Shown one piece after another: positions 6,156 through 49,874 of a stretch of 49,874 nt of DNA (positions are counted from its first letter, which is position 1; each line of letters begins with the position of its first letter). The DNA comes from a virus, in the IMG/VR virus record IMGVR_UViG_3300044941_000019, positions 1-49,874 of that record. One strand, written 5' to 3'. A model generated the notes under the pieces. It was given only the letters and a program-made list of their open reading frames with translations, searched no databases and was not told where the DNA came from. The position numbers and the translations under genes were made by a program.

Positions 6156-6551
6156 TCAAGCAAGTAACCGACGAAGATCGGTGCTGGTCTTATTGACCAT
6201 GGTTGTGAAATCTTCAGCAGTGCGAATTCGGAGCGCCGTGAAAATGCAATTGCCATTCTTCCACAGGTGAATCCGCTTAGTTCCAACGGGCAATACTGGG
6301 GTTACCTTGCTTCCAAGAAGCTGTTTCATCATCAGGTTGAGTAGCACTCGATCGAAATAAGTGCCGCTTGCGGTTGCAACTTCAAGATGAATCGTGGGAA
6401 GCACTTCGATTCGCTTCTTAATCGTATCGACAGTGTAGGCATAATTCCAATACTTGGAATCAGGCTTGATTTGACTCTTCAGAATGAGCTGCTCATTAAG
6501 ACCGGCAAACATCACTGCATCTTCACATCTTGAAACCGGGATTGCCAACAT
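6156..6551 (-). CDS. Uncharacterised protein, first gene after an internal promoter
   Basis: This 131-residue protein is of unknown family. It follows the best sigma70-type promoter in the window (6597-6624), has AGGAG 7 nt before its ATG, and is therefore probably the first gene of a transcription unit running left to 387. The end (RIRTAEDFTTMVNKTSTDLRRL) looks helical. The leader between promoter and gene carries one AAGATAAGAT element, so expression of this unit is likely regulated. Confidence 0.6.
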   Translation of the reverse strand: MLAIPVSRCEDAVMFAGLNEQLILKSQIKPDSKYWNYAYTVDTIKKRIEVLPTIHLEVATASGTYFDRVLLNLMMKQLLGSKVTPVLPVGTKRIHLWKNGNCIFTALRIRTAEDFTTMVNKTSTDLRRLLA

Positions 6552-6563: not shown

Positions 6564-6573
6564 AAGATAAGAT
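6564..6573 (-). promoter_or_regulatory. AAGATAAGAT element downstream of internal promoter
   Basis: On the minus strand this reads ATCTTATCTT, starting 23 nt after the -10 box of the 6597-6624 promoter and just before the ribosome binding site of the first gene. An inverted partner lies at 6650-6659. The matching arms extend to 14 bp (TAAGATAAGATGGG and its complement at 6647-6660), flanking the promoter on both sides. Confidence 0.6.
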
Positions 6574-6596
6574 GGGCCTTTTCAAGGCAACAAGCA

Positions 6597-6624
6597 ATGA
6601 TACCTTTTAATTGTGACGTGTCAA
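6597..6624 (-). promoter_or_regulatory. Sigma70-type promoter
   Basis: On the minus strand TTGACA (6619-6624) and TATCAT (6597-6602) are separated by 16 nt. TTGACA is the consensus -35 box and TATCAT differs from TATAAT at one position. It lies in a 101-bp intergenic gap ahead of eight or more co-directional genes and is flanked by inverted AAGATAAGAT elements. Confidence 0.65.
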
Positions 6625-6652
6625 TAGGTATTTTTGACTATTTTTTCCCATC

Positions 6653-7069
6653 TTATCTTACTTTTGCTAGAATTCCCTGCACAATCCAATCTTTGGCTGT
6701 TGTGAAATCAGCCGTCTTATTGTGAAGAATGAACCCATCGTACACGAAGCAATGACCCGGTACCCAAATCACAGATGGAAGTCTCAACAATTTCGCTTCT
6801 TTCACTACTGACCGATTTTGCAAGGATTGCATTTCCGTCACTCGGTCTCTCAAGATGAGTCCATACCCAATCCAAAGGAGACTATCTTGACATTCAGTGA
6901 TAGATGCTGGTCGCAAATTGTGTGGATATTCCAATTCGGGCCAGGGTTCATCTTTATACCCAAACCAACCCTTATACTCCTGAATCTCATCTTCGGTCAA
7001 TGGGCTATGATGGTTCAAGAGGGTCAAGATAGCGGTAGCTTGGCAATTGCCTGCATGGATGATTTGCAT
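6653..7069 (-). CDS. Papain/C39-like cysteine protease-fold protein (tentative)
   Basis: This 138-residue protein opens with an NCQATAILTLL segment that puts Cys9 at the start of a helix, as in papain-like and C39 peptidases. It has a later GHCFVYDGFIL segment with His106 followed by a small beta strand and Asn117. That Cys-His-Asn order is the family's catalytic layout. The resemblance is motif-level only and the protein could be an inactive relative. The start overlaps the previous stop as TAATG. Its stop codon lies within one of the AAGATAAGAT elements. A role in cleaving a host or phage protein is speculative. Confidence 0.4.
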   Translation of the reverse strand: MQIIHAGNCQATAILTLLNHHSPLTEDEIQEYKGWFGYKDEPWPELEYPHNLRPASITECQDSLLWIGYGLILRDRVTEMQSLQNRSVVKEAKLLRLPSVIWVPGHCFVYDGFILHNKTADFTTAKDWIVQGILAKVR

Positions 7070-7542
7070 TAGCGTAGAATCTCTCCTTCTACCAATGATG
7101 GTGGGATTTCAAGACAGTTGGTCATGAAGTACAAGTCACGTCCGATATTGGACCCAATCACGATCACATGCTTGCCTCGGTTTTTGAGATATTGTACAAG
7201 TGGCGCAAAATCGGAATCAGCGGTTGCCAAAATAATGGTATCGAAGTCGTCAATACTCTCAATGATGTCAATTGTCATACCGACATCCCAATCTCCCTTT
7301 GAAAGTCCATTATGAAACTCCTTCACCTTCTTGAACTTCACTTCGATTCCAAGGTTCCTAAGATGATTGATGAAAGATTTCGCCTCATCACCTTTCTGGC
7401 ACCCATAGGCTCGAATGCAAATAAGAGAGCCGAAATCGTTGCAAAATTCGATGAACCTTGCATAATCAATCTTGCGACCGTACTTCCGATTACAAGAATG
7501 ATACAAGTTACTGATGTCGATGAACAATCCCACTTTGGTCAT
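7069..7542 (-). CDS. NYN-domain nuclease (LabA/DUF88 family)
   Basis: This 157-residue protein has a PIN-like NYN domain occupying nearly the whole length. The acidic metal-binding positions are visible: D9 and N12 in FIDISNLYH, D86 and D92 in GDWDVGMTIDI, and D109/D111 in ATADSDFAPLVQYL. The family comprises RNases or RNA-binding proteins. In a phage early region it may process phage mRNA or attack host RNA. It is coupled to the upstream gene by ATGA. Family assignment is firm; substrate is unknown. Confidence 0.88.
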   Translation of the reverse strand: MTKVGLFIDISNLYHSCNRKYGRKIDYARFIEFCNDFGSLICIRAYGCQKGDEAKSFINHLRNLGIEVKFKKVKEFHNGLSKGDWDVGMTIDIIESIDDFDTIILATADSDFAPLVQYLKNRGKHVIVIGSNIGRDLYFMTNCLEIPPSLVEGEILR

Positions 7543-7961
7543 AAGATGCTCCTTGCTGCCGTTTGGATACTCATACGAGAGTAGAGTTCAAGGGTTTCAA
7601 CATCTTCATTAGCGAGTACTGCGTTGCGAACGGCACTCATCATTTCGTAGCGCCGGCGATAGAACTTGCGAACATCTCGAACCCACATCAAGTGTGTAAT
7701 CACTTCAAATCGATCTTGACAATCTTGCAAATTCCCTTCAAACACGACCAATGAACCATTGAGAAGCACAAACTTCCGTTTCGAGTAGTGTGGCTTAATT
7801 TGCCACCCTTCAACTGGTGAAAATCCCACATGCTCGAAGACTTTCAGTTTCTCAGGTGGCTTGCAAAAGTACAAGATAACCCAATGGTCGCGCCACTTCG
7901 ATCTCAAATGCTCATACGGCCTTCTCTTGTAGCTGAGAAGTGCTTCCAGCATCTTACTCAT
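7539..7961 (-). CDS. Uncharacterised protein
   Basis: This is a basic protein of about 140 residues. The ATG at 7961 is chosen because it overlaps the stop of the VRR-NUC gene as ATGA; an upstream in-frame extension would lie entirely inside that gene. It contains an aromatic-basic core (LRSKWRDHWVILYFCKPPEK) and a helical C-terminus (RRRYEMMSAVRNAVLANED). No domain recognised. Its position between two nuclease genes suggests a nucleic-acid role, nothing more. Confidence 0.55.
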   Translation of the reverse strand: MSKMLEALLSYKRRPYEHLRSKWRDHWVILYFCKPPEKLKVFEHVGFSPVEGWQIKPHYSKRKFVLLNGSLVVFEGNLQDCQDRFEVITHLMWVRDVRKFYRRRYEMMSAVRNAVLANEDVETLELYSRMSIQTAARSIL

Positions 7962-8299
7962 GTCTTGACTCCACTTGGCATTGAGTTCAGGTACATGTAC
8001 CAATTGAATGGTTTGAACAGCTTCTGGTACTCTTCTTCGGTACCAGCTGTCAAGACCCAAACACCGGAACCGTTGGCACACATCTTCGGAAAATCTTCCA
8101 ATTGAGCAGCGGTGAAAGCGCTACCCACCATGCCCGGTCTCTTCACTTCAATCCAACGCGCACCATATCTGCTATGCGTTGCATAGAGGTCAGGCCACCC
8201 TTGCATCATAATACCACCATGTGTTTCTTTCACATACCAACCCTTGATTCTAAGCATATTGATTATTGCTTCTTGGATTTTGGCTTCGGGCTTTCGCAA
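7958..8299 (-). CDS. VRR-NUC domain nuclease
   Basis: This 113-residue stand-alone VRR-NUC protein belongs to a PD-(D/E)XK family found in phages and Fan1-type nucleases, where it cleaves branched DNA. The signature is complete: an N-terminal Glu helix (EAKIQEAIINMLR), GWPD with D37, EVK at 51-53 and a later Gln (AAQLEDF, Q66). The start is a TTG at 8299, supported by AGGAGG 6 nt upstream. It overlaps the previous gene's end by 37 nt. Likely resolves phage replication or recombination intermediates. Confidence 0.9.
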   Translation of the reverse strand: MRKPEAKIQEAIINMLRIKGWYVKETHGGIMMQGWPDLYATHSRYGARWIEVKRPGMVGSAFTAAQLEDFPKMCANGSGVWVLTAGTEEEYQKLFKPFNWYMYLNSMPSGVKT

Positions 8300-8529
8300 G
8301 ACGCACCTCCTTCAATGGCGTGGGCCAACACCAAGTGACGGATTGCATCAGAGGTCAAAGTGCCACTGCTATCACCTTCAATGAGCCTCAAGATGCAGAT
8401 CTTTGCATGAGTCAAATGATACTCGCGGGAATTGTGATAGAAGATGAGGCGATTAGGCCCCGGTTCCGTCGGATCAAACTTCATTCCATTCAGAATCTTA
8501 GTAACAAGGCTTTTGGTGATCTTACTCAT
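8263..8529 (-). CDS. Uncharacterised small protein
   Basis: This is an 88-residue protein with GAGGAG 8 nt before its ATG. It has a compact N-terminal part (TKSLVTKILNGMKFDP), histidine-rich strands (FYHNSREYHLTHAKI) and a lysine-rich tail (SPKPKSKKQ). Its 3' end contains the ribosome binding site and TTG start of the VRR-NUC gene. Unknown function. Confidence 0.55.
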   Translation of the reverse strand: MSKITKSLVTKILNGMKFDPTEPGPNRLIFYHNSREYHLTHAKICILRLIEGDSSGTLTSDAIRHLVLAHAIEGGASCESPKPKSKKQ

Positions 8530-8905
8530 CGACTTGTCTCCTCACGATTTCTTTCTCGTGCATCTTGGTGAAGATGCGATTCACTTTGTGACGATGAAAC
8601 ACATCTGGGCGATTTTCTTTCACACAAGCAGATCGTATTGCATTGAATGCTTCTTTGAGCAGATCAAACTCGTACCCAGTTGTTCCCATCAGATCGAATA
8701 GCGCCCATCGTTCCTCTGAATGCAACCCTCTTACATCTTCATAATTCAAGATCAAGGGTTCGATTTCGCTAATATAGAGGGATGCTTCAGTCAAGACTTC
8801 AGAGGGCAGATCTTCCCAATCTTCGGGAATCCAGAATTCTGAAGCAGGGCTGTGCCTCTCATAGATCTTATTGATTCGCTGCACGAAGTCTGGCAGTGAT
8901 AGCAT
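8522..8905 (-). CDS. Uncharacterised helical protein
   Basis: This 127-residue, mostly helical and acidic protein (DFVQRINKIYERHSPASEF, then SEIEPLILNYEDVRGLHSEE) ends in a basic tail (KMHEKEIVRRQVDE). AAGGAG lies 10 nt before the ATG. It overlaps the genes on both sides (38 nt upstream, 8 nt downstream). No family recognised. Confidence 0.55.
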   Translation of the reverse strand: MLSLPDFVQRINKIYERHSPASEFWIPEDWEDLPSEVLTEASLYISEIEPLILNYEDVRGLHSEERWALFDLMGTTGYEFDLLKEAFNAIRSACVKENRPDVFHRHKVNRIFTKMHEKEIVRRQVDE

Positions 8906-9134
8906 TCTTCAGTTGCTCCTTTGTGAGCCGGGTGGCATATGGGATTGCAAGCTTCTTTGCTTCGATGATAAGATCCTCGCGAGTTTCATCTCGCAATGCC
9001 CTCAAGATCTTACCCTTATCTGTTACTGCTTCTTGAATCAAAGGTTCTAGAGCCTTCACTTCTTCAGGAGACAGCTTCGATAATCGGTATTTCAATGATC
9101 TCCAGAAGTTGAGTTCATCTTCGATCAGTTGCAT
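8868..9134 (-). CDS. Small protein with SAP/Rho-N-like motif
   Basis: This is an 88-residue helical protein. The C-terminal third (LIIEAKKLAIPYATRLTKEQ, then LKNAITARL) follows the helix-extended loop-helix pattern of SAP or Rho N-terminal domains, which bind nucleic acid. The N-terminal part is a coiled-coil-like helix (LSPEEVKALEPLIQEAV). It directly follows the small SH3-like gene downstream of the polymerase. Role unknown; nucleic-acid binding is inferred from the motif. Confidence 0.55.
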   Translation of the reverse strand: MQLIEDELNFWRSLKYRLSKLSPEEVKALEPLIQEAVTDKGKILRALRDETREDLIIEAKKLAIPYATRLTKEQLKNAITARLRAANQ

Positions 9135-9358
9135 CGCGGTGGGTAATGGAAATAGGGAGGTTTGTCACAAGAATAAGGATCTTGTGCCTCATAATTGAGA
9201 TTCAGAATCTCAATAATCGTTCCATTGGGGATATCGGATTCGACAGTGTAATGATCGCCGTTTCGATCAATCACTTTCCCCGGATACCGGTCCCCGCTTT
9301 TTGAAATCAGAATCACTTCTTGACCCACTTCTGCATTCACATACAGTTTGTGTCTCAT
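9125..9358 (-). CDS. Small SH3/KOW-like protein
   Basis: This protein of about 77 residues has an N-terminal segment (VGQEVILISKSGDRYPGKVI, then DRNGDHYTVES) with the glycine and strand pattern of a small SH3/KOW barrel. The ATG at 9358 overlaps the polymerase stop as ATGA and is preferred over an in-frame codon 18 nt upstream. Adjacent to the DNA polymerase gene; possibly a nucleic-acid or polymerase accessory factor, but this is a guess. Confidence 0.55.
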   Translation of the reverse strand: MRHKLYVNAEVGQEVILISKSGDRYPGKVIDRNGDHYTVESDIPNGTIIEILNLNYEAQDPYSCDKPPYFHYPPRCN

Positions 9359-11571
9359 TTGATCTTTCCTGCCCAACTCGGAAGGTCATCATCCCAAGAA
9401 ATACCCATTAGAGGGATGAGGGTTCGCATTTCTTCGACAAAGGATTCCACGATGCTGCGAATCGAACTCACAAGATGTGGCTTGCAAGGTGCCATCACTT
9501 CATCGTGAATGTTAATTGGCATCACATGCCAAGGGTGAACACCTGATGGTTGCAATTGCCAGATTCGATTTTGCAAATCTTTCACCATGTCTGCCTCCGG
9601 TGATTGAATCACATGGTTGCTTGCTGCCCGCATATTGGCAGCTTGAATCTGAAAAGCAGCACCATATAATGCAGATTGCGTTGCACCTAGAACCGTCTGC
9701 TCTGAATCTCTGCGTCTCACATACCCCTTGATCTTGTGCCAGTCTTTCGGTGGCTTATTCGCAAGTTCATAAAATTTCTTGCAAATGAGGTTCTCGATCA
9801 CGAAGTAACGTCGGAATCCAAACATCGACTCAATGTAATCGGCGCTATCTTTCCAAATCACTTGAGTCCCGATTCCGTTTGGCTGTGTCATAGAGCAAAA
9901 CATGGAAGCGTAGCGTCGTCTTTCTTGGCCCCACTGCTTGTATCGTTCCAAGAATCGACGAACACCCTCTTCAGCAGCTTCTTGACTGATGCCAACGCGA
10001 TTGGACAAAGTGTAGGCTTCGCCACCGAACAACATTGCAAGGAATCCCTTCTTAGACCGATCATACTTGTCCAATTCGCCGGGTTTCCCTTTCGACTTCA
10101 TAATGGAATCATAGGTTTCATCAGGGAAGAGGGTTTCACCGAAGATAGCATAGATCTTCTTCCCAGATTTCAAGTCGCTCGTCATCTTGTCATCTTTGTA
10201 CACAGCACAAGCGATTGCGACTTGTGATCCCTCAAAGTCACCACCAGCCAGTTGCATTCCGGGCCAAGCCAACGGGAAGCAAGATCTAATTTCTTTGCTA
10301 TGATTGATTCCTTGAGCATTAAGACCACCATCGCCGGACATTCGATTGCTCAAAGCACCAATCACTTTGAAGTTGGCATGAAACCGATCAGCAGTGATTA
10401 GCTTTCCATACAACTCCTTTTCCTTGAGTTTGCGTCTATACTCCAAGATGTGTCGGGCACGTTCACTAGCTTCAGTACCCCAAGTTGCGATTTCTTCAAG
10501 CAAAGGTGCCGGAGTATGAAACTTCCCGTCTGAATCAATCAAGAAGGTTTTCTCAACAGGTGTTAGCACTTCTGATAGATACCACTCACAAACCCGATTG
10601 CTGTTGAAGTTGTGACCAGTGGTTTCAATGCTGTTGAGTCGATTTTCAAGAGCCTTGGTATCAACGTTCAATCCACGCCAACGAAGGGCACCAACCAAGC
10701 AAGCGAGTTCGCTTGCCTTGTCACCCGGTTCCGGCTTCTTGAAATACTCATACAAGAAGCGAGTATAATGAACATCATTTTCTGCATACTTACGAGCCAA
10801 GGGATGGTGTGCCCAATGCTCGTGATGCATCTGAATGAAATCGGGCCACTTGTGCCACCAGTTCTTTGGTGACGGTTGCTTCAAGATATCATCTTCGTAG
10901 AATGGAGCCAAGGCGTAAGGTGCGTACCCGATTTCAAACGGGTTCCGGGATGGCATGATGTCATCGATCTTGGTAACACTGATTCCTTGAATCTGAGCGA
11001 TAATCGCCTTAAGAGCAGAAGATGGGGCAAACTCAATTTTGATATTACTGAACCCCGGTCGCCCATTAGGCAGCACTTTCCATCGCTCTGAATCTACCTT
11101 CTTTGAGAAGTAGATTTCAGGGATCTCAATGGCCTCAAGTTCTTCGCGCAGTGTCTCTGCAATCTGATTCGGAACACGATTCACTCGTATTGGCTTACGG
11201 TTCATGGTCCCTTGAAATTCGCCAGCCTGTGCAAGAAGCATCAGATCAAGGGCACGCTTGGGTTTCAAGCAAATATCAAGATCGCGTGCTTCTTTCTCGT
11301 ACTGAGCGTATTCATCAATATGGCAGATCGGTTCTTTGCCGAAATCATCGAACATCGTGAGCGTCGTGTACATCTGACAAAGATGGAACCAGTCAAAGGC
11401 AAGATTGAACCCGCAAACATCGGATTCCACGATCGTGTCGATGATTTCCAATGTCCGGTAGATCGGATTGGACCACGGGGAATAAAGATGCACGGGCCCA
11501 TCGTCCATTGCATATTGCAACAGAACGATCGGCCCGTGGAATCCGCACGTTTCCGTGTCGAAGAAGATCAT
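9355..11571 (-). CDS. Family A DNA polymerase with 3'-5' exonuclease
   Basis: The replicative polymerase of the phage, 738 residues. The exonuclease domain keeps its motifs: DTE at 5-7, GFNLAFDWFHL (Asp60) and YAEND (Tyr262, Asp266). The polymerase domain shows SNRMSGDGGLNAQGI, motif A with D445 (GGDFEGSQVAIA), motif B with KKGFLAMLFGG (507-517) and motif C HDE (689-691). All catalytic residues look intact, so both synthesis and proofreading are expected. There is no 5'-3' exonuclease domain, as in T7-like polymerases. GAGGAG lies 5 nt before the ATG. It lies downstream of a ParB-like protein and a SNF2 helicase in the same operon. Confidence 0.95.
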   Translation of the reverse strand: MIFFDTETCGFHGPIVLLQYAMDDGPVHLYSPWSNPIYRTLEIIDTIVESDVCGFNLAFDWFHLCQMYTTLTMFDDFGKEPICHIDEYAQYEKEARDLDICLKPKRALDLMLLAQAGEFQGTMNRKPIRVNRVPNQIAETLREELEAIEIPEIYFSKKVDSERWKVLPNGRPGFSNIKIEFAPSSALKAIIAQIQGISVTKIDDIMPSRNPFEIGYAPYALAPFYEDDILKQPSPKNWWHKWPDFIQMHHEHWAHHPLARKYAENDVHYTRFLYEYFKKPEPGDKASELACLVGALRWRGLNVDTKALENRLNSIETTGHNFNSNRVCEWYLSEVLTPVEKTFLIDSDGKFHTPAPLLEEIATWGTEASERARHILEYRRKLKEKELYGKLITADRFHANFKVIGALSNRMSGDGGLNAQGINHSKEIRSCFPLAWPGMQLAGGDFEGSQVAIACAVYKDDKMTSDLKSGKKIYAIFGETLFPDETYDSIMKSKGKPGELDKYDRSKKGFLAMLFGGEAYTLSNRVGISQEAAEEGVRRFLERYKQWGQERRRYASMFCSMTQPNGIGTQVIWKDSADYIESMFGFRRYFVIENLICKKFYELANKPPKDWHKIKGYVRRRDSEQTVLGATQSALYGAAFQIQAANMRAASNHVIQSPEADMVKDLQNRIWQLQPSGVHPWHVMPINIHDEVMAPCKPHLVSSIRSIVESFVEEMRTLIPLMGISWDDDLPSWAGKIK

Positions 11572-11580
11572 TTCGTCTCC

Positions 11581-12417
11581 TCAAATAACTGAGTCTTTCA
11601 AGTTGCCGGGTTTCTTGTATGGAATTCCGAGGAATTCAGCTTCTTCACGAATCATCTCGTGAAGCGATTCGTTGTCAACTGCACCAGCGGCCCATCCCAA
11701 GACTCTCGTCACAAGGGTATGTTTGCCGAACAGATTGTGCAGATACTGCTGCAAGTCAAAGAGTTCAGATGAATTTCGCACTCTTCGTGACTTATTTTTG
11801 TCAGGGCGAATCTTGATTTGGCTACCAGCTACGCCCTTCTCAAGATCACCTCGCACCTTAGTCAAAGCCTTTGCTAGAGCCTCAATACCACCTTGCCGAT
11901 ACAAGAGACTCAGTTCCCCGATTTTACTCTTGGGTAATGAACCAGCCAAGATCTCTTCTTGAACTTCCATAGGCAACGAATTGTAATCAATCCGTTGCTT
12001 AATCCATGGCCAACTCATCTTCAAGGCTTTCTCAAGATCCTTGCGAGTGTACCCCAGTTTCTGGAGACGATGAATCACCGTCGCTTCATGCTGAATCGTA
12101 GTTTCAGTACGATTCACATTTTCCGCGAGGTTGAAAGCAAGAGCTTCGCCCTCATCTTTGAACCCAGGGTGTACCGTTGCTCTGATCGTCTCATGCTTGA
12201 GGATCTTACAAGCAAGGGTTCGACGGAACCCGGCAACAAGTCGATAAGGCTTTTCACCACCGCTTTTCACTACAGTAACGGGGTGAATAAGCCCACGTTC
12301 TTCGATTTCTCGAACCAAGCCGGCAACTTCAACCGGCGTCAGATCGTGACCACGACAGTTCCAATCAAGATCGACATGGATGTCATTGATTGGGATGTCA
12401 ATTACAGGTAACTTCAT
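11581..12417 (-). CDS. ParB/Spo0J-like protein
   Basis: This 278-residue protein has an N-terminal ParB domain carrying GFRRTLA (63-69) and ENVNR (100-104), the two motifs that form the nucleotide pocket in ParB proteins, followed by an HTH-like region (YTRKDLEKALKMSWPWIKQR). No ParA is visible in the window, so a partition system is not supported. Phage ParB-like proteins are often DNA-binding replication or regulatory factors, and some are nucleases. It is coupled to the helicase gene by ATGA and followed by the polymerase, favouring a replication role. Confidence 0.82.
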   Translation of the reverse strand: MKLPVIDIPINDIHVDLDWNCRGHDLTPVEVAGLVREIEERGLIHPVTVVKSGGEKPYRLVAGFRRTLACKILKHETIRATVHPGFKDEGEALAFNLAENVNRTETTIQHEATVIHRLQKLGYTRKDLEKALKMSWPWIKQRIDYNSLPMEVQEEILAGSLPKSKIGELSLLYRQGGIEALAKALTKVRGDLEKGVAGSQIKIRPDKNKSRRVRNSSELFDLQQYLHNLFGKHTLVTRVLGWAAGAVDNESLHEMIREEAEFLGIPYKKPGNLKDSVI

Positions 12418-14351
12418 CGCAGTGACTCCTGTTCCATTGCGGTTTCAAGATCTCCAAGCGACAATGCTTGGAGTTGCTTCTTCTTCTTCAGATTTTCGAT
12501 TATCAGCTTATCGGTTGGCAACATTACAATGTCCTTGATTGTACAGCCTCGATTTTCTGGCATCCCAAGACGGTGAATCCGATCTTCAGCCTGCATTCGA
12601 CTCTCACCTTTGAAGCTGTTACTGAAGAACAAGGCACACGGTGATGCAGTGAACGTAAGACCCATGCCGCCGGCATCTGGATTACCAACTACACAGACCT
12701 TGGGATATTGAATCTTCAAAGCCTCGAAATCGGGATGGCTTGCGTCCATCGCCTTAAGAAGATCATCAGCGTCCACTGCTTTCCCATCAGGTCCGGTACC
12801 AATGTATCCCTTCCCATCAATGCGAAGAGAGTTCCAGCCTGCTTTGGTCACGATCTTCACAAGACGCTCAATCGTGCCAGTGAATCCAGCCCAAACGACA
12901 TAGCGCCCAATATCATCATGCTCATCAAGTTCATCGAGCAAGATTTGATCTTTCGGGGTTCCGATTTCAACAGTACCACGGACGAGCTTCTGAACGACAC
13001 CGGTCCCATCGCAATAAGAACATTTGCATGTTTCTTCACGATAGGTGGGATTATCAGGAGTCGGACCCATGATATCGAATTCTGGAATCTTGACTACTTC
13101 GATCTTGGAACCATTGCAATTGGGGCAAACTTCAGTAGCGCCGGGTTCTTCGACATATTGAAACCCGTCGCTTAGCTCACGAAGAAGAGTGAGACGCTGA
13201 ATCGCGGTTCTTCCAGTCTTCGCAGCAAGCCGGGCATATCGCTTAATATCGGCTGATGGTTCCACTTCGATCACCTGATACTGCTTCTCTGGAAGCTCGA
13301 TGCAATCCTTCTTGAACTTAATCAGCACTAGCCCCTTGAGCCGACGGTACAATCTTTCAACTTCGTTCACAGATGGTTGAAACTGATGGCTTCCGTGTTC
13401 ACCCGGAATGATCGCAGTGTGGTTGAAATGATCTTCAAATTCACCACAAATTGCACACTTGTTGGGATTATCCCACCATGTCTTGACAACTGGGTATTTG
13501 GAACCATCGAACGATTCATTGTCAATAACAAGGCACAGTGTTTTCTTGAATTTGCGAGTATCTCCCTCTTTCAGGAAACCGGGGCAAGCCACTTCTGCTT
13601 GACTGTACCAGTCAATTGGACTCTTGGGTGCCGGCGTACCGGTTGCTTCCAAGATGTGGCCCCAACCGGGCCACTGATTCCTGACACGAGAAGCCAGTTC
13701 CATAGCTGCTTGTGTCCGTTGCGCCGATTCATTCTTCAGTTTGCTACTTTCGTCGAAAAACACGAAGATGGGGACCGAAATCAGATTGGCCACTTCTTTG
13801 ATCATTTGTTCATAGGTCATCATCTTCGGAATGAACTTGGCTTTCCACTTCTTCAGTTCAAGGTTGACGGCTTTCACACCACTCCGAGGTCCAACATACC
13901 AAATTGCGTAAGTGGGGAGATAGTTGTGAAAGTCCACGAAATTGTCAATAACATGTTCCGCTGCTTCAATCCAAGGGAGCGTCTTGCCAGTGCCCATTTC
14001 GCCAGCAATGATGCAATGCTGCCGGGTCAAGATGTGCTGAAACATTTCCACTTGATGGGCTCGAAGAGATCGAGTTGGCTTGATATCAAGCAGTTCTTTG
14101 TCATAACTGGTATAGGGATCAAAGCCTTGACCAGCACGAGCTTTCATGTAATTGATTTGAAACCAGTTCCTTTCGCAATTGGCGATTGACCATATCTTGC
14201 GAGGCGGGGTTTCAAACCCATGCCACTTTGCACCTTTCATCATCTTAATCTCAGCAAGTAATGCTGCATTATAAGGAAATTGCAGTTCAAGGCGATTTCC
14301 TACGTCTGTGATTTGAACATTCACTACAGATTTGCCAGCAGCAAGAAGCAT
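12414..14351 (-). CDS. SNF2-type DNA helicase/translocase with zinc-finger insertion
   Basis: This is a 645-residue superfamily 2 ATPase. Walker A is GEMGTGKT (117-124), motif II is DES (200-202, FFDESSKLKN), motif III is ATGTP (236-240) and motif VI is AEDRIHRLG (588-596), the SNF2-type arginine finger. The N-terminal 60 residues resemble the HARP-like region of SMARCAL1-type annealing helicases. Between the two lobes are cysteine clusters, CAIC near 299-302, CPNC at 409-412 and CKCSYC at 442-447, the last two looking like a DnaJ-type zinc finger. It probably remodels or reanneals DNA during replication. Start overlaps the upstream stop as TAATG. Confidence 0.88.
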   Translation of the reverse strand: MLLAAGKSVVNVQITDVGNRLELQFPYNAALLAEIKMMKGAKWHGFETPPRKIWSIANCERNWFQINYMKARAGQGFDPYTSYDKELLDIKPTRSLRAHQVEMFQHILTRQHCIIAGEMGTGKTLPWIEAAEHVIDNFVDFHNYLPTYAIWYVGPRSGVKAVNLELKKWKAKFIPKMMTYEQMIKEVANLISVPIFVFFDESSKLKNESAQRTQAAMELASRVRNQWPGWGHILEATGTPAPKSPIDWYSQAEVACPGFLKEGDTRKFKKTLCLVIDNESFDGSKYPVVKTWWDNPNKCAICGEFEDHFNHTAIIPGEHGSHQFQPSVNEVERLYRRLKGLVLIKFKKDCIELPEKQYQVIEVEPSADIKRYARLAAKTGRTAIQRLTLLRELSDGFQYVEEPGATEVCPNCNGSKIEVVKIPEFDIMGPTPDNPTYREETCKCSYCDGTGVVQKLVRGTVEIGTPKDQILLDELDEHDDIGRYVVWAGFTGTIERLVKIVTKAGWNSLRIDGKGYIGTGPDGKAVDADDLLKAMDASHPDFEALKIQYPKVCVVGNPDAGGMGLTFTASPCALFFSNSFKGESRMQAEDRIHRLGMPENRGCTIKDIVMLPTDKLIIENLKKKKQLQALSLGDLETAMEQESLR

Positions 14352-14494
14352 TATTTCTTTCCTTTGAGGGCGTCGAGGAGCTTTTGACCAAACTCAGTGA
14401 TTTTGGGTCCAAAAGTGAAGGTCTTAGGCTTATAGCCCGGAATGATTTCACTCTTCTTAGAGTCGGGTGTTGAGTTTGTACTTGATTGTTCCAT
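14351..14494 (-). CDS. Uncharacterised 47-residue protein
   Basis: A short gene just before the helicase. AAGGAG lies 10 nt before the ATG at 14494; the frame is open further upstream, but that part antisenses nothing useful and overlaps the preceding gene heavily, so I chose the short form. The protein is basic with a charged N-terminus (STPDSKKSE) and a C-terminal helix (GPKITEFGQKLLDALKGKK). It could be a small helicase partner; unknown. Confidence 0.5.
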   Translation of the reverse strand: MEQSSTNSTPDSKKSEIIPGYKPKTFTFGPKITEFGQKLLDALKGKK

Positions 14495-14951
14495 CCGCTT
14501 GCAACTCCTTTCCAAGCGTTGCGAAGATGCGTCTGAATTCAGTTGTCGAAAATACGGTAACAATTGCAGTTGCGAATTGTCGTTGTGCTTTTCTCGGATT
14601 GAATCCCACAGCGGCAAGAATCGCATCTTTGACCGAAAGAACAATTATCGCGATGGTTGCATCAGGTGTTCGTTTGACGATCATCTTCCCGATGTTCAAA
14701 TCCCGAATATCTTGAATTTCAGAATCTGACCCTTCGAGAATGAACCCAACATGAATCATGTCGAGATGAGCCAAGTTGAGATTTTCGGGATTATCTTGCA
14801 GGCTGATTCCGAACGCAATCGCACCGGGGTCATCTTTGTTGATGCGATTTTCGTCAAAATAGCGCAAAGGTCCGAGGCCCAAATGGGCCTCGGACACTTT
14901 GTGCAAGATTTGCCAGTTGCACGCAGGGAGTAGCACTGGCATTGTGTTCAT
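14457..14951 (-). CDS. Uncharacterised protein
   Basis: This 164-residue protein is of unknown family, mixed alpha/beta. It starts as TAATG on the stop of the previous gene; a second ATG three codons in is an alternative. Near codons 17-31 the RNA would fold into a 19-bp hairpin followed by UAUUUU, resembling an intrinsic terminator inside the gene. It sits between the polymerase/helicase genes and an upstream unknown gene in the replication operon. Confidence 0.6.
   Translation of the reverse strand: MNTMPVLLPACNWQILHKVSEAHLGLGPLRYFDENRINKDDPGAIAFGISLQDNPENLNLAHLDMIHVGFILEGSDSEIQDIRDLNIGKMIVKRTPDATIAIIVLSVKDAILAAVGFNPRKAQRQFATAIVTVFSTTEFRRIFATLGKELQADGTIKYKLNTRL
14862..14904 (-). terminator. 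Strong terminator-like hairpin inside a coding region
   Basis: An 11-bp perfect GC-rich stem (GTCCGAGGCCC paired with GGGCCTCGGAC, loop ATTT on the minus strand) extends by a further 8 bp with one bulge and one wobble pair. It is followed on the minus strand by TATTTT. It lies about 50 nt inside the 164-residue gene, so it could attenuate transcription of the helicase and polymerase genes unless translation or an antiterminator overrides it. Confidence 0.5.
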
Positions 14952-15610
14952 TAGCGTTCCCGCTCCGGTGCGACTACAACAGCGGGTTGGGCTTTCGGGA
15001 AATCCATGAACTTGCGAATTTCTTCTTGGAGTTCAGGAATCGGTGGCAAGTCGTGCTTCACTGAGCAGACGGAGATCGCAGGTCCAGCCCATTCATAGTC
15101 CTTGGACTTAATCATCTTGCTACCAAGGGTAGCGAAATTATTAAGAAGGACTTTGACCTTGTTCGCTTCGTTGCGGGCGGTAGCCGACCCCATGAAGTAC
15201 CCAGCATACTTCTGAATCACGGGGACGTACATCAGGAACTGTGGTCCATACATGTTCTTGGACTTCGTGGCCGGATTCGTTGAGCGAGCCATAATTTCAG
15301 CGAACAGGCCGGTGGGTTGCCCATTGACAACAGCCATGTCGTGAACCGCGACAGGCGGTGAGTTCGTGATGTCAAGGGCAAGGGGACGAACGGCCAAGAC
15401 AGCGACATCGACGTTCTGGCCAAGTTCGATCATTTCATCGTCACTTCCAAGATAGGCCCAAGTGTTAGCACGCACTTGACCCTTCTTGACGGGTTCACTG
15501 TTCGCGGTCAAGAGCTGGAGGCGGCCAAGGAAGCCACCTCCATTTCCCATAACGCGGTCAATATCCTGTGCAACAGCAACTTCGGTGTTCGGGATGATCA
15601 GGTCAGTCAT
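14951..15610 (-). CDS. Uncharacterised replication-operon protein
   Basis: This protein of about 219 residues starts at the second ATG (15610), which has AAAGGA 6 nt upstream; the first ATG at 15616 directly abuts that site. The sequence contains a glycine-rich stretch (DRVMGNGGGFLGRLQLL), a beta-rich middle and a C-terminal segment rich in proline and arginine (QPAVVVAPERER). I do not recognise the family. Its position between a ParB-like gene and the helicase suggests replication; a single-stranded DNA-binding role was considered but no OB-fold signature is evident. Confidence 0.6.
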   Translation of the reverse strand: MTDLIIPNTEVAVAQDIDRVMGNGGGFLGRLQLLTANSEPVKKGQVRANTWAYLGSDDEMIELGQNVDVAVLAVRPLALDITNSPPVAVHDMAVVNGQPTGLFAEIMARSTNPATKSKNMYGPQFLMYVPVIQKYAGYFMGSATARNEANKVKVLLNNFATLGSKMIKSKDYEWAGPAISVCSVKHDLPPIPELQEEIRKFMDFPKAQPAVVVAPERER

Positions 15611-15654
15611 CTTCATTCCTTTGAGTGGCGAGGGTTAGTGGGTGAGTGAATCAG

Positions 15655-15700
15655 TGGGTGGATTAGTGAGTGGAAGGTGGGATTAGTGAGTGGAAGGGTC
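15655..15700. repeat. 20-bp direct repeat around a gene end
   Basis: Two adjacent near-identical copies of a segment containing GATTAGTGAGTGGAAGG (period 20 bp) span the stop codon of the ParB-like gene. The 70-bp gap to the next start is otherwise made of GTGAGTGG-like repeats and contains no gene. Confidence 0.7.
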
Positions 15701-16813
15701 AGGACCGTTGCTGGGTTCCACAAAAGCGTCCTTCCTGTGGGCCTCGAAGTACTCGCTGGCCTTGAGCTTCTTGTCCTTGGCGATAGCTTCAGAGAAGCCC
15801 TTGCGGAGCTGCGGAGCGATCTTGCGATCGAACTCAAAGGCACGAGCTGCATTGAGCATAAGACGCTCAAGTTCCGCTTTCTGAATTCGGACCTCAACGT
15901 CCTCTTCCTTCAGGAGACCAGCCGTGGCGTTGCGCTTGTCAGCGCGCTCCTTCGCAGCAGCCTTGCGGGCTTCTTCATCCATCTTCTGGCGCTCGACAGA
16001 AGCAGGGTCAAGCTGAATCGCCCACTTGATACCAAGAAGGAACGCTTCGCTGGGGCTGTCAGGCAAGATGATCGAGGGCGGCGAAGTAATCGCGGCCTTC
16101 AGTTCAGAGAGCTTGCGAAGAGTGGGAGTCGGTTCCCAAACCGGAGGATTAGCCTCGCGGGCCTGCTTGCGAGCCTCAGCCAGTTCCTTCTTGCGAGCTG
16201 CGATCTTCGGAGCGAACTCGCTCGTGGACATCGTGATCGCATCCTGCTTATAATGCTCCTGCTCTTGCTCAGGGAGTCCAGCAAGGGCATATGCATTAAG
16301 AAGTGGAATCTGACCCGCATTGACAAGCTCCTTGACCTCTTCATTCTTGATGTTGAGGAGGGAGACACGCTTCTGAAGCACCTGAGGCGTGGTATTAAGA
16401 AGCTTGCAAAGGTCAGACATCGTGTAGTGAGGATTAAGGGCAACGATGCGCTGAACCTGTTCCGCATACTCCACGGGCTTGGTTTCGATCACCGTGTAGT
16501 TGGCAAGAAACTGGCTGACCAAGATTTCTCCGTCGTTGGCATTCCCTTCGACATACGCAGGGAGCGCGGTGAGGCCGATTTCCTTGGCCGCAGTGTACCG
16601 ATGAAGACCGTCAATCAGGGTGTAGTAGGTTTCGCCCGTGTCCTTATCTTTGAGCGGTCCATGCACCTTGATGACGGTGGTGAACCCTTCGCGGCGAATG
16701 TTCCCAAGAAGGGTGTGGTAGCCCGGCGACGTGCGATCGACCTGACGGAGAGCGACACGATGCGGCCGGATTTGCGAGATGGGGATTTCTTGAATGTTGG
16801 AGATCGCTGACAT
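15683..16813 (-). CDS. ParB-like protein with long C-terminal extension
   Basis: This 376-residue protein, first gene of the left operon, has an N-terminal ParB-like domain with DGLHRYTAAKEIG (68-80) matching the family's G-x-R/H-R motif. A central HTH-like region (MSDLCKLLNTTPQVLQKRVS) and a long charged helical C-terminus (KMDEEARKAAAKERADKRN) follow. The expected ENxxR motif is weak (ANYTVIE), so nucleotide binding may differ from classical ParB. The ATG at 16813 has AGGA 6 nt upstream; upstream in-frame codons lie in the regulatory leader. Adjacent to the repeat hub, it is a candidate for binding the iteron-like repeats. No ParA is present. Confidence 0.78.
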   Translation of the reverse strand: MSAISNIQEIPISQIRPHRVALRQVDRTSPGYHTLLGNIRREGFTTVIKVHGPLKDKDTGETYYTLIDGLHRYTAAKEIGLTALPAYVEGNANDGEILVSQFLANYTVIETKPVEYAEQVQRIVALNPHYTMSDLCKLLNTTPQVLQKRVSLLNIKNEEVKELVNAGQIPLLNAYALAGLPEQEQEHYKQDAITMSTSEFAPKIAARKKELAEARKQAREANPPVWEPTPTLRKLSELKAAITSPPSIILPDSPSEAFLLGIKWAIQLDPASVERQKMDEEARKAAAKERADKRNATAGLLKEEDVEVRIQKAELERLMLNAARAFEFDRKIAPQLRKGFSEAIAKDKKLKASEYFEAHRKDAFVEPSNGPDPSTH

Positions 16814-16900
16814 TTGCAGTCCTTTGATTGAGGGAGAGGGTTGAAGATGACGGGTTGCGGGATCGAAGTGAACGGTTTCAAGATGGACACTTTCAAGACC

Positions 16901-16910
16901 AAGATAAGAT
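16901..16910 (-). promoter_or_regulatory. AAGATAAGAT element in leader of left operon
   Basis: On the minus strand this is ATCTTATCTT, 20 nt downstream of the CCCCTTATA part of the promoter-like element at 16931-16963. The same order and near-identical spacing recur in front of the primase gene on the other strand. Confidence 0.6.
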
Positions 16911-16930
16911 GGAATATCCGGTCCTGTCAC

Positions 16931-16963
16931 AATATAAGGGGCTGGAAAGTGGCCGGTTCACAA
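16931..16963 (-). promoter_or_regulatory. Promoter-like element TTGTGAA-N15-CCCCTTATA
   Basis: On the minus strand TTGTGAA, 15 nt, then CCCCTTATATT. The same element with identical spacing is found on the plus strand at 18301-18333. The TTGTGA to TATATT distance (21 nt) is too long for an ordinary sigma70 promoter, so it may need an activator or another sigma factor. It lies 118 nt before the ParB-like start. Confidence 0.55.
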
Positions 16964-17070
16964 AAGAATTTTTGCAAACAAGCGATTGCAAATTGGGCCT
17001 TTCCTTTAGAAAAGGAACCCGCGCGCCCGCGTAGCAAGAACCGTGCCATACGATATCTTATCTTGATAGT

Positions 17071-17191
17071 GGGACCGGGGACCGGGGACCGGGGACCGGG
17101 GACCGGGGACCGGGGACCGGGGACCGGGGACCGGGGACCGGGGGACCGGGGACCGGGGACCGGGGACCGGGGACCGGGGACCGGGGACCGG
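17071..17191. repeat. G-rich 7-bp tandem repeat GGGGACC, 16 copies
   Basis: Sixteen copies of GGGGACC (first copy truncated, one copy with five Gs). Runs of four Gs separated by ACC are ideal for G-quadruplex formation on the plus strand. No gene runs through it. Further arrays lie at 17603-17650 (7 copies) and 17904-17916 (two shorter copies). Confidence 0.95.
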
Positions 17192-17294
17192 CTATTAATA
17201 TAAGACGGCTAAAAAAGGCCGTGGTAAATCTGCAAAATCCAATTAATCAAATTCCCAAAATCCAAGTCTAAGATAAGATATAAAAATGAAGGCT

Positions 17295-17313
17295 AAGATA
17301 CGTATCTTATCTT
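17295..17313. promoter_or_regulatory. Palindrome AAGATACGTATCTT next to AAGATAAGAT element
   Basis: A perfect 14-bp palindrome at 17295-17308 overlaps an ATCTTATCTT copy at 17304-17313; another copy in the opposite sense lies at 17270-17279. More copies in this region lie at 17055-17064, 17484-17493, 18077-18086, 18232-18241 and 18266-18275. Confidence 0.55.
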
Positions 17314-17515
17314 GGTCTTAAATAAGGGGTCGTTCTCATATTGATTGCAACCGATGCCTTTGTAGTGGAGAGGGCGGACATAGGCCTATTTGCTCCATTA
17401 ACCGGTCTAATTTCGACTTGGGACCATCGGGTAAGGTCACCGGTCACTTGGACCGTCCTGATGACCCAATTGATTCAAAGTCCAAGATAAGATGGGAGAA
17501 CTGATAGTATACCCT

Positions 17516-17572
17516 CATATTATTCTTTTTATATTAATAATAATAATAAATATTTAAGAGAAAATATATAAT
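17516..17572. other. AT-rich block 1 (possible DNA unwinding element)
   Basis: About 57 bp of almost pure A/T including TATTAATAATAATAATAAAT. It is bounded by TATACCCTCAT on the left and ATGTGGGGGTATA on the right, which are imperfect inverted repeats. It is repeated at 18109-18165. Confidence 0.6.
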
Positions 17573-17602
17573 GTGGGGGTATATGGTCAAGCAGTCAGTC
17601 TA

Positions 17603-17650
17603 GGGACCGGGGACCGGGGACCGGGGACCGGGGACCGGGGACCGGGGACC
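17603..17650. repeat. G-rich 7-bp tandem repeat GGGGACC, 7 copies
   Basis: Second array of the same unit as at 17071-17191, placed exactly between the first 149-bp repeat and the second cassette head. The first copy lacks one G. Confidence 0.95.
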
Positions 17651-18100
17651 GTGACATAGGCCTATTTGCTCCATTAACCGCTCTAATTTCGACTTGGGAC
17701 CATCGGGTAAGGTCACCGGTCACTTGATGGTTCTCAGACCGTCCTGATGGCTCTCAGACCATCGGGTAAGGTCACCGGTCACTTGGACCGTCCTGATGGC
17801 TCTCAGACCATCGGGTAAGGTCACCGGTCACTTGGACCGTCCTGATGGCTCTCAGACCATCGGGTAAGGTCACCGGTCACTTGGCCCGTCCTGATGACCC
17901 ACCGGGACCGGGACCGTGGCATAGGCCTATTTGCTCCATTAACCGCTCTAATTTCGACTTGGGACCATCGGGTAAGGTCACCGGTCACTTGGACCGTCCT
18001 GATGGCTCTCAGACCATCGGGTAAGGTCACTCGATGGCTCTCAGACCGTCCTGATGACCCAATTGATTCAAAGTCCAAGATAAGATGGGAGAACTGATAG

Positions 18101-18176
18101 TATACCCTCATATTATTCTTTTTATATTAATAATAATAATAAATATTTAAGAGAAAATATAGAATATGGGGGTATA
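18101..18176. other. AT-rich block 2 with flanking inverted repeats
   Basis: Second copy of the AT-rich block. TATACCCTCATATT (18101-18114) and AATATGGGGGTATA (18163-18176) form a 14-bp inverted repeat with a single mismatch around the AT-rich core. Confidence 0.6.
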
Positions 18177-18300
18177 TGGTCAAGCAGTCAGTTACTTCGT
18201 GTAATTGGACCCTTTTACACGATCCACTATTAAGATAAGATACGCAATTGAACCCTTCATTTTCTATCTTATCTTGGTCTTAAGTGAACGATCGTTTTAT

Positions 18301-18333
18301 TTGTGAATCATGCCGATTTGAACCCCTTATAAG
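18301..18333 (+). promoter_or_regulatory. Promoter-like element TTGTGAA-N15-CCCCTTATA
   Basis: TTGTGAA, 15 nt, CCCCTTATAAG, matching the element that faces the other way at 16931-16963. It ends 106 nt before the primase ATG and is followed 19 nt later by ATCTTATCTT, part of a 30-bp palindrome. Probably the promoter of the right-hand operon. Confidence 0.55.
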
Positions 18334-18350
18334 TAGATGGTCAAGTCTGC

Positions 18351-18380
18351 TTATCTTATCTTAGGTCTAAGATAAGATAA
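18351..18380. promoter_or_regulatory. 30-bp perfect palindromic operator
   Basis: Arms TTATCTTATCTTAG and CTAAGATAAGATAA are perfect complements around a GT centre. It contains two AAGATAAGAT elements in opposite orientation (18353-18362 and 18369-18378) and lies between the promoter-like element and the primase ribosome binding site. This is the most symmetric version of the motif in the window and the likeliest strong binding site of its regulator. Confidence 0.7.
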
Positions 18381-18423
18381 CATCTTGATCGTCTGAACGC
18401 CCATCTTAATCAAGGAGACGTAA

Positions 18424-18456
18424 ATGCTGGAGGCTCGTGATGGCTACAAAGACTGA
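18424..18456 (+). CDS. 10-codon leader peptide overlapping the primase start (candidate)
   Basis: ATG at 18424 is preceded by AAGGAG at 6 nt and encodes MLEARDGYKD before a TGA at 18454-18456, in a different frame from the primase. The primase's own ribosome binding site (GGAGG) lies inside it and the primase ATG at 18440 is within its codons. It could couple or throttle primase translation. Small size means the evidence is the ribosome binding site alone. Confidence 0.35.
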   Translation: MLEARDGYKD

Positions 18457-21166
18457 AGCGATCAAGATCTTTCTTGAGAAGTTCGGAATCCCTGATCTCG
18501 CTGCTCTCTACACGCCGAACATGGAAGTGCAAGTCAACGTAGCTCAAGATCATGGTGAAAGAATCCAAGTACCGGGTTCTCGATCCATTAGCTACACTGA
18601 CAACCTCACCACTTGGTCTTCGTTCCGAATCCCTCATAAGGCGGCAACTGAACCCGAGTACGAAGATAAGGAAATCAGGTTCGACCTTTCAAAGCACGCT
18701 GATTCAATTGGAATGACTGGCTGGGATTTCAAGGACCGCGTATCGAAGTGGGTCGCTTTTGACTTCGATGCAATCACCGGTCACAGTGAGAAGCACGCTG
18801 CTAAGAATACTCAGGAAGAGTTGGATCGAATCAAGCAGGAAGCCATGAACATCGAGTGGGTAACCATCCGCAAAAGCACAAGCGGCAAGGGTCTCCATCT
18901 CTATGTCTTCTTGCCAGATGTCCCAACTGCTAATCATACTGAACATGCTGCCTTGGGTCGCTCCATCTTGGGAATGCTCTCAGCTCTCACTGGCTATGAT
19001 TTCAATGCTCGCGTCGATGCCTGCGGTGGTAATATGTGGATCTGGTCTCGACGTTCCCGTGGTACAGATGGTCTCTCACTCATTAAGCAGGGAGACATCT
19101 TGTATGATTACCCTCAAAATTGGCGCGATCACCTCGTTGTAGTCAATGGTTCCCGCCGCAAGAATCTACCACAAGACATCAATGATCTCGATATCTTTGA
19201 AGAGATCTGTGGTCAACGTCACAAAGTCCCTCTTGATGATGAACATCGACGCTTGATTAATTACTTAAAAGATTCAAATGCACTATGGTGGTGGGACCAA
19301 GATCACCATATGCTTGTCACACATACCTCTTATCTTGAAGAGGCCCATCGGGCTCTCGGTATGAAAGGTATGTTCAAAACAAACAGCGAGGGAACGGACA
19401 AAAACACCCAGAATTGTTTCCTCTTCCCCTTGCGCCGTGGATCTTGGTCCGTTCGTCGCTACACTCCGGGTGTCCAAGAAGATCCATCTTGGCAACAGGA
19501 TGGTCAAGGCTACACTCGAACGTTTCTGAATCGTGAACCAGACTTCGTTTCCGCTTGTCGCGCACACGGTGGTCTCGAAGATACCAAAGGCGCTTTCTTC
19601 TTCAGAACCGCAGAAATGGCTATGAGCGCTGCAAGCGAACTTAAGGCTGGGTTCAGTCTCAAGCAACCTTATGCCAGTCGCCCTTGCACACTCCGTAAGC
19701 ACAAAGATGGGCGCCTCATCGTGGAATTCAAGCACGATCTTCACGATAAGGGTGATGAACTCGTTGGCTGGAACTTCGACAAGAAGCAATGGATCAGAAT
19801 ATTCGATATTCAAGAGCCTAAGAGTTCGGATATTGATACAGCCAACTTTGATGACGTGATTCGGCACGTCGTAACCGAGCAAAATGAAGATTACGGTTGG
19901 GCTGTTCGACGTGATCACACTTGGGGTATTGAACCTTTGTCCCATGTGAAGCCTGTCCTGATGGCTCTCGGAACGAATTCTAAGGAACTGCAACATGTCT
20001 TGGGTGCTTCGATTCTCAAGCCATGGCGTCTTGTCAACAAGCCGTTCCAACCTGAGTACCCAGGCGACCGTGAATGGAATCGAAATGCTGCCCAATTGTG
20101 CTTCAAGCCTAATATCGAAAAAGGCGAATATGATTATCCCACTTGGTACAAGATTCTTGAACACTGTGGCAAGGATCTCAATGAAAGTGTTCAGCGTGAT
20201 GCTTGGTGCAAGGCAAACGGAATCACCCGTGGCGCAGAATACTTGAAGCTGTGGATTGCTTCTCTGTTTCAGGAACCCGAACAGCCTCTTCCATATTTGT
20301 TCTTCTTCGGTCCCGAAAATAGTGGCAAATCAATCTTCCACGAAGCACTCTCCCTGTTGTTCACACGAGGGTATAAGCGTGCTGATAATGCTGTCTTGAG
20401 TCCAAGTGGCTTCAATGCGGAACTCGAAGGTGCTCTACTTTGTGTGGTCGAAGAAGTGAACCTTGGTCGCAATCAAAGTGCTCTTAATCGAATCAAGGAT
20501 TGGGTGACCTCACCAAACATCTCAATCCATCGTAAGGGAGAAACCCCTTATCATACAAAGAACCTGACACATTGGGTTCAAACGGCTAACAGCATTGATT
20601 TCTGCCCCGTTTTCCCCGGCGACAGTCGCATCACTATGGTCTACGTCGATGCTCTTGAAATCACTGAAATGATCCCCAAGAAGCGGCTTCTTCCGCTTCT
20701 TGAACAGGAAGCTGCGGATTTCCTTGGTGATATACTCACGATTCAATTGCCTGAATCGAATGATCGTCTCAATATTCCGATTCTCACGACGATGCACAAG
20801 CAGAACATTCAATACATCAATGCATCCTATGTTGACATCTTCCTCAATCAGCATGTTGTGGAAGCTCCAGGTTGTGCAATGTCCTACCGTGATTTCTACG
20901 ATTTCTTCATCACCACGTTGCCAGAGAATGAACGACATCAGTTCACGATTCGGAAATTCGGGGCACAGCTTCCAGCTAAGATGCTCAAGGGTCGTTCATC
21001 GAAAAATGGCGAATGGCAAATTGCAAATGTACGATTGAAGCATGATACAAACGCAATTCCCGTTTGTGAAGAGTTCGTCTTGAAAGGCGATACATTGGTT
21101 CCGAAGGGTCAAGAGATCGTTATTGATCATCGCTACGCTCACTTGCGAGGTCTCGCCAATGGCTAA
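18440..21166 (+). CDS. Primase-polymerase fused to SF3 (D5-like) helicase
   Basis: This 908-residue protein has two enzymatic parts. The N-terminal archaeo-eukaryotic primase domain shows DFD (D108, D110), the SxH-type motif SGKGLHLYVF (His153) and a third acidic motif around RVDACGGNMWIW (D193). The C-terminal SF3 helicase has Walker A FFGPENSGKS (about 623-631), Walker B LCVVEEVN (about 667-674) and motif C WVQTANS (about 712-718). It would unwind the origin and make primers. The ATG at 18440 has GGAGG 6 nt upstream and is preferred to the GTG one codon earlier. First gene of the right operon, next to the repeat hub. Confidence 0.92.
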   Translation: MATKTEAIKIFLEKFGIPDLAALYTPNMEVQVNVAQDHGERIQVPGSRSISYTDNLTTWSSFRIPHKAATEPEYEDKEIRFDLSKHADSIGMTGWDFKDRVSKWVAFDFDAITGHSEKHAAKNTQEELDRIKQEAMNIEWVTIRKSTSGKGLHLYVFLPDVPTANHTEHAALGRSILGMLSALTGYDFNARVDACGGNMWIWSRRSRGTDGLSLIKQGDILYDYPQNWRDHLVVVNGSRRKNLPQDINDLDIFEEICGQRHKVPLDDEHRRLINYLKDSNALWWWDQDHHMLVTHTSYLEEAHRALGMKGMFKTNSEGTDKNTQNCFLFPLRRGSWSVRRYTPGVQEDPSWQQDGQGYTRTFLNREPDFVSACRAHGGLEDTKGAFFFRTAEMAMSAASELKAGFSLKQPYASRPCTLRKHKDGRLIVEFKHDLHDKGDELVGWNFDKKQWIRIFDIQEPKSSDIDTANFDDVIRHVVTEQNEDYGWAVRRDHTWGIEPLSHVKPVLMALGTNSKELQHVLGASILKPWRLVNKPFQPEYPGDREWNRNAAQLCFKPNIEKGEYDYPTWYKILEHCGKDLNESVQRDAWCKANGITRGAEYLKLWIASLFQEPEQPLPYLFFFGPENSGKSIFHEALSLLFTRGYKRADNAVLSPSGFNAELEGALLCVVEEVNLGRNQSALNRIKDWVTSPNISIHRKGETPYHTKNLTHWVQTANSIDFCPVFPGDSRITMVYVDALEITEMIPKKRLLPLLEQEAADFLGDILTIQLPESNDRLNIPILTTMHKQNIQYINASYVDIFLNQHVVEAPGCAMSYRDFYDFFITTLPENERHQFTIRKFGAQLPAKMLKGRSSKNGEWQIANVRLKHDTNAIPVCEEFVLKGDTLVPKGQEIVIDHRYAHLRGLANG

Positions 21167-49711: not shown

Positions 49712-49730
49712 TGTGATCGGGTCCAAAGAT

Positions 49731-49874
49731 GTGTCATTGTGATTGGCTGTGTCATTGTGATTGGCTGTGTCATTGTGATTGGCTGTGTCATTGTGATTGG
49801 CTGTGTCATTGTGATTGGCTGTGTCATTGTGATTGGCTGTGTCATTGTGATTGGCTGTGTCATTGTGATTGGCT
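49731..49874. repeat. 18-bp tandem repeat, 8 copies, at right edge
   Basis: Eight exact copies of GTGTCATTGTGATTGGCT ending at the last base. On the minus strand each copy holds CACAATGACAC, which is also the sequence around the portal ATG. An 8-bp-longer related copy at 49705-49730 sits over the portal start. A 7-codon frame with MTQPIT repeats exists in another frame. The window ends within the array. Confidence 0.97.

Follow-up and report, generated by a model that had tools for sequence, protein, structure and literature searches.

A genome-specific repeated word shared by three early leaders in a family of uncultured phages: a probable operator with an orphan ParB-fold protein as candidate reader

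A repeated word in three leaders

What is the role of a short DNA word that recurs a dozen times in one viral genome, almost entirely between genes? The question is raised by the IMG/VR virus record IMGVR_UViG_3300044941_000019, one record of 49,874 bp, the whole of which was analysed and is referred to below as the window. The word is the 10-mer AAGATAAGAT, counted on either strand. Ten of its 12 copies lie in a 1.63-kb hub that separates two divergent genes, one encoding a ParB-like protein (ParBA) and the other a primase-helicase, and the remaining two lie at a third operon to the left. Comparison with related phages, presented below, indicates that the element is very probably a DNA operator common to three early operons. 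We lean toward the view that AAGATAAGAT is the window's allele of a family-wide operator, that its reader is most likely ParBA and that binding most likely lowers transcription.

The original prediction listed 12 exact copies of AAGATAAGAT, all of which were recovered in place. Shuffled controls contained 0.18 copies on average and never more than 2. For the hub, where 10 copies were seen, a first-order Markov model predicts 0.004. When tandem arrays are set aside, AAGATAAGAT is the most frequent 10-mer of the window. Allowing up to one mismatch yields 18 matches against 4.2 expected, and the excess therefore resides in the exact copies. Although the count of 12 stands, the copies are not all independent: those at 17484 and 18077 lie in a 149-nt block that is duplicated at 99% (17451-17599 and 18044-18192), so that at most 11 are independent. 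The pairs 17270/17304 and 18232/18266 lie inside a 50-nt inverted duplication that is 76% complementary.

Noncoding DNA makes up 6.1% of the window by our own gene list. It had been proposed that the word is restricted to intergenic DNA, and this holds for 11 of the 12 copies, which are wholly noncoding; the copy at 6650 instead covers the last 7 nt, stop codon included, of the gene at 6653-7069. The copies at 16901, 17055 and 18077 fall within mechanically called open reading frames (ORFs); one of these is a GTG extension of ParBA upstream of 16810, the start supported by the family, and the other two ORFs lie in repeats.

The hub (16811-18439) is bounded by ParBA (15683-16810, minus strand) and by the primase-helicase gene (DUF5906; 18440-21166, plus strand), which heads a rightward operon. 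On the ParBA side, the leader contains a copy at 16901-16910 (plus strand), so placed that the mRNA strand reads ATCTTATCTT, and a second, inverted site at 17055-17064 (minus strand). On the other side, the primase leader contains the predicted 30-bp palindrome at 18351-18380, which proved exact, with arms at 18351-18364 and 18367-18380, a 2-nt centre, and copies at 18353 (minus strand) and 18369 (plus strand). Between the two leaders are internal pair 1 (17270-17279, plus; 17304-17313, minus), internal pair 2 (18232-18241, plus; 18266-18275, minus) and one plus-strand copy in each of the duplicated blocks (17484-17493 and 18077-18086).

The two distant copies flank a promoter-like TTGACA-N16-TATCAT, from which a minus-strand gene run starts at 6551. 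The copy at 6564-6573 (plus strand) lies in the 5' leader, just ahead of the ribosome-binding site of the first gene (6156-6551, minus strand; 131 amino acids, no function assigned), and the minus, or mRNA, strand again reads ATCTTATCTT. The -10-like TATCAT (6597-6602) and the -35-like TTGACA (6619-6624), 16 nt from it, are both on the minus strand. The second copy (6650-6659, minus strand) precedes the promoter and includes the TAA with which the upstream gene ends. In all three leaders an element lies downstream of the promoter-like box in the same mRNA orientation, as predicted; the gaps, put at 19-23 nt, measure 21, 20 and 23 nt.

Relatives of the locus

The locus DNA had no match in phage and plasmid collections, the ParBA protein had none in the phage collection, and the primase gave only weak partial matches there. 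Because a search with the single ParBA sequence turned up no viral relative, the primase was taken as the query instead, and it returned 24 viral contigs at 49-60% identity. A primase profile then identified 153 viral relatives, of which the best 80 were kept, together with 7 in genome contigs. These 7 are mostly metagenome-assembled genomes (MAGs) of Planctomycetota (L061-L067), one of them in a 444-kb contig, which is a hint of the host or else an effect of binning.

The gene arrangement around the hub is conserved. The ParBA gene faces the primase-helicase gene in about 80 uncultured phages; ParBA is found in nearly all relatives with enough flanking sequence, and a second ParB-like protein, ParBB (11581-12417, minus strand in the window), in most. 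An SNF2 helicase and two small proteins are also conserved. This comparison took in about 10 kb to either side of the hub. The helix-turn-helix (HTH) genes at 3878-4535, named in the original prediction as candidate readers, were not among the conserved genes recovered; the compared flanks do not reach them, and these candidates are thus not rejected.

The word changes while its positions are kept

If the element were an operator, related phages might be expected to carry it in the same leaders. In the closest relatives (49-60% primase identity) the same two hub leaders carry GATTTGATT/AATCAAATC, not the window word. AAGATAAGAT is absent from every relative hub; a MAG, L064, has one copy just beyond the limits of its hub. 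Both words are direct pentamer repeats, (ATCTT)2 in the window and (TGATT)2 in the relatives. Binding sites for IHF and DnaA were considered and dropped, since the word matches neither consensus. In the 35 genomes defined by having at least two hub GATTTGATT sites, 113 of the 119 sites are in hubs, which make up 17.7 kb or 3% of the DNA searched, with 6 in the other 580 kb. The relatives keep one or two copies per leader near the start codons, with no array; the distance from the nearest element to the gene downstream is mostly 28-78 nt for ParBA and 11-74 nt for the primase. The order of elements in ParBA leaders is reverse-forward (14) or forward alone (14), and in primase leaders forward-reverse (15) or forward alone (9). 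The window obeys these orders in both hub leaders, where its palindrome at 18351-18380 is the counterpart of the GATTTGATT..AATCAAATC pair. On the mRNA strand, the orientation of GATTTGATT is nearly constant in the relatives' two hub leaders. Many relatives lack both words and have instead, close to each of the two start codons, a repeated or palindromic word peculiar to them; TTGAGTTCAAACTC in L097, TTAGTTTAATCTAA in L106 and TGATGATT in L029 are examples.

In whole records of the relatives the word forms a second cluster, at a distance of 10-13 kb from the hub. Its place corresponds to that of the 6564/6650 pair in the window, as shown by the same NYN-domain gene, our synteny marker (7069-7542, minus strand in the window), and the same upstream gene (6653-7069, minus strand). 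The order there is the NYN gene, a conserved small gene (absent from L055 and L059) and a sigma70-like promoter, similar to TTGACA-N~17-TATAAT, with sites at or around it. A sigma-like gene lies downstream of this promoter in L052, L053, L054, L056 and L058, and the product of a gene farther along the same run in the window (2245-2715, minus strand) matches the profile of these proteins (E 1.4e-5). The stop codon of the preceding gene, TGA, falls within the element in L051 and L053, as the TAA does in the window copy at 6650. The orientation of both third-operon sites varies among relatives. The longest word common to the hub leaders and the third-operon region averages 13.7 nt within a genome and 10.7 nt between genomes. 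In 13 genomes that were not selected for GATTTGATT, this sharing of a word is significant (permutation p = 5e-5), with the proviso that L091, L120 and L122 have words close to TGATT, so that the 13 are not all independent of GATTTGATT. In one record, that of L027, paired GATTTGATT sites form two distinct clusters on the side of the third operon (G010:C1:15959-16042 and 20558-20641).

On the primase tree the GATTTGATT label requires at least 10-11 changes, an approximate number of word switches since the tree is a quick one and the label rests on an exact 9-mer. The window is sister to L016, a GATTTGATT genome, with 96% support, and nests in a set of 27 rows, 15 of which carry GATTTGATT. From this nesting the window word looks like an allele that was switched at conserved positions. 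The word alone is not diagnostic, because a scan of viral contigs for the inverted pair ATCTTATCTT-N0-30-AAGATAAGAT returned 18 stretches, none of which encodes ParBA, ParBB, the primase or the NYN protein.

An operator for three early operons

The original prediction read the pattern as an operator defining an early-gene regulon. Throughout the family, an element specific to each genome recurs in these three leaders, and this comparative evidence supports the reading. We infer that one phage-encoded, sequence-specific protein would bind copies at or just downstream of three early promoters, those of ParBA (leftward), of the primase-helicase (rightward) and of the operon 11 kb to the left with the sigma-like gene in its run. 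The bound protein would most likely lower transcription of all three operons. Sites near or downstream of the promoter boxes, together with the site upstream of the third promoter, are placed as a DNA-binding repressor would require. ParBA, an orphan HTH protein with a ParB/KorB fold that is encoded beside the hub, is the most likely reader; as an autoregulatory repressor it would then time or limit replication and the early genes.

Two features of the sites do not sit easily with this interpretation. Nearly all spacings from 0 to 29 nt occur within inverted pairs, and the two hub leaders use opposite pair orders; a classical rigid dimer would not usually show either. Inspection by eye revealed no helical phasing of the pairs. 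The constancy of orientation and pair order among hub leaders is left unexplained. Finally, the protein may activate rather than repress the three promoters.

Which protein reads the word?

Profiles of both ParBA and ParBB (orphan proteins of the ParB/Noc/KorB fold) match Spo0J, Noc, ParB and KorB, and ParBA has a ParB N-domain plus an HTH. AlphaFold2 models have a mean predicted local distance difference test score of 88 for ParBA and 92 for ParBB, with Foldseek matches to Noc and KorB. Of the two CTPase motifs, GxxR is present and invariant in ParBA, and the ENxxR of canonical ParB is degenerate (ANxHK). The chance that ParBA is the reader is about even.

A real but lesser possibility is that the same DNA operator is read by ParBB, by the sigma-like protein or by a phage protein encoded outside the compared region. 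ParBB is conserved to the same degree as ParBA and retains both GxxR and ENxxR, and the sigma-like gene belongs to the gene run of the third operon. The covariation of protein and word is conflicting. With a loose definition of the word, a partial Mantel test favoured the HTH of ParBB (r 0.14, p 0.03); with a tighter definition a second test favoured ParBA, and neither was corrected for multiple testing. An association of one residue with the word was not significant on independent pairs. Pairs of genomes with at least 85% identical helices share a word in 8 of 10 cases for ParBA and 18 of 29 for ParBB. Against ParBB, the genomes L078 and L070 have near-identical ParBB recognition helices and different words, and it is the ParBA gene that adjoins the hub. 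On position and weak, conflicting covariation, then, ParBA is the favoured candidate, and ParBB may be the reader or a partner.

The copies in the hub could instead serve to control a replication origin, as iteron-like sites for an initiator, with the distant pair a site for titration or handcuffing. This is unlikely. The hub does adjoin the primase-helicase gene and contains AT-rich blocks, palindromes and long repeats. However, the relatives' one or two copies near the start codons do not form an array, and the third cluster flanks a promoter, where no origin-like features were seen.

Quite improbable is a role in RNA, in which hairpins or protein sites in the 5' leader would control translation. 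The position of the element downstream of promoter-like boxes in all three window leaders fits this, as does the nearly constant mRNA-strand orientation in the relatives' hub leaders. At the third operon, however, one site is upstream of the promoter and the orientation of both varies, so that a shared transcript element cannot explain it.

Very improbable, despite two ParB-like proteins and clustered palindromic sites, is that the sites are parS centromeres of a ParABS system partitioning an extrachromosomal prophage, since ParA (PF13614) was found neither in the window nor in 25 relatives, in searches whose positive controls worked, and a tyrosine integrase in 0 of 25 relatives (that model was not applied to the window, and serine integrases were not searched for). 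Partition and integrase-based lysogeny are disfavoured on these grounds, as is the RNA element on those given above.

Comparison with known systems

By analogy, the nearest known kinds in action are the operators of KorB and the repressor sites of L5-clade phages; membership in either is not established. KorB of plasmid RK2 acts at OB operators near and distant from several promoters, including those of replication genes (PMC11790492), and it ranks with the best structural matches of both ParBA and ParBB, HTH proteins of the same ParB fold. RK2, however, is a plasmid and OB a 16-bp site, whereas the phage sites are direct pentamer repeats, often paired at variable spacing, in a word that differs between relatives; no KorA-like partner was identified, and ParBA has ANxHK in place of ENxxR. 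In the L5 clade (Cluster A) of mycobacteriophages, the repressors of related heteroimmune phages recognise distinct consensus sites (PMC6550527, PMC9283540). There too short asymmetric sites are repeated in each genome with a consensus that differs between related phages. Stoperators, however, occur genome-wide and block elongation, while the window sites are limited to three early leaders and are not scattered in the direction of transcription; nor was a tyrosine integrase found in the 25 relatives. The proteins resemble Noc and ParB in profile and fold, and differ from the ParB-parS system in the lack of ParA and in sites at promoters, not at a centromere or scattered over a chromosome.

A fold survey found orphan ParB-like proteins to be frequent in mobile elements, mostly without known function (PMC12704722). 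Here, dozens of genomes hold two of them in conserved surroundings, together with a defined candidate target, and the link between ParB-fold protein and DNA word is therefore directly testable in this family. We propose tentatively that the early programme of a large family of uncultured phages is under the control of an orphan, KorB-like repressor of the ParB family that works without ParA, and that its three-promoter operator has repeatedly switched sequence, with positions, pair order and stop-codon overlap kept and the specificity of the reader changing with the word. Word switches in step with the protein would make the family a natural series of matched protein-operator alleles, and a natural experiment in the simultaneous change of a regulator's specificity at several promoters.

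Additional features of the hubs and of the window

The window hub is about four times as long as is typical of the family (median 452 bp in 76 relatives). Its size is due to GGGACCG heptad arrays, a 49-nt repeat array and the 149-nt duplication; the hub repeats are at 17071-17191, 17603-17651, 17737-18030 and 17451-17599/18044-18192. None of the other hubs compared has at least two GGGACCG heptads. Between the leaders of some relatives' hubs (L009, L012, L024) there is a second class of inner palindromes, such as AGTCACGTAATTACGTGACT and AGTCACCTAATTAGGTGACT, which are possibly origin elements. The primase matches of L024, L113 and L114 span about 1 kb of extra DNA, possibly an intein or intron; in L024, for instance, residues 1-864 extend over 10001-13654. 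About 4.5 kb beyond the primase start, 37 of 43 compared loci encode a family that we read from its sequence as a DnaQ-like exonuclease; it was not found in the window.

The window proteins scanned included no recognisable terminase. Both ends of the record lie in tandem arrays (1-138 and 49730-49874; CCAGGCA x20 and an 18-nt unit x8), so a break at repeats is the probable reason why the record stops there. At 2693-3541 and 21447-22142 there are tandem duplications across neighbouring small genes, the first of about 425 bp with copies 78% alike and the second of about 352 bp with copies 84% alike.

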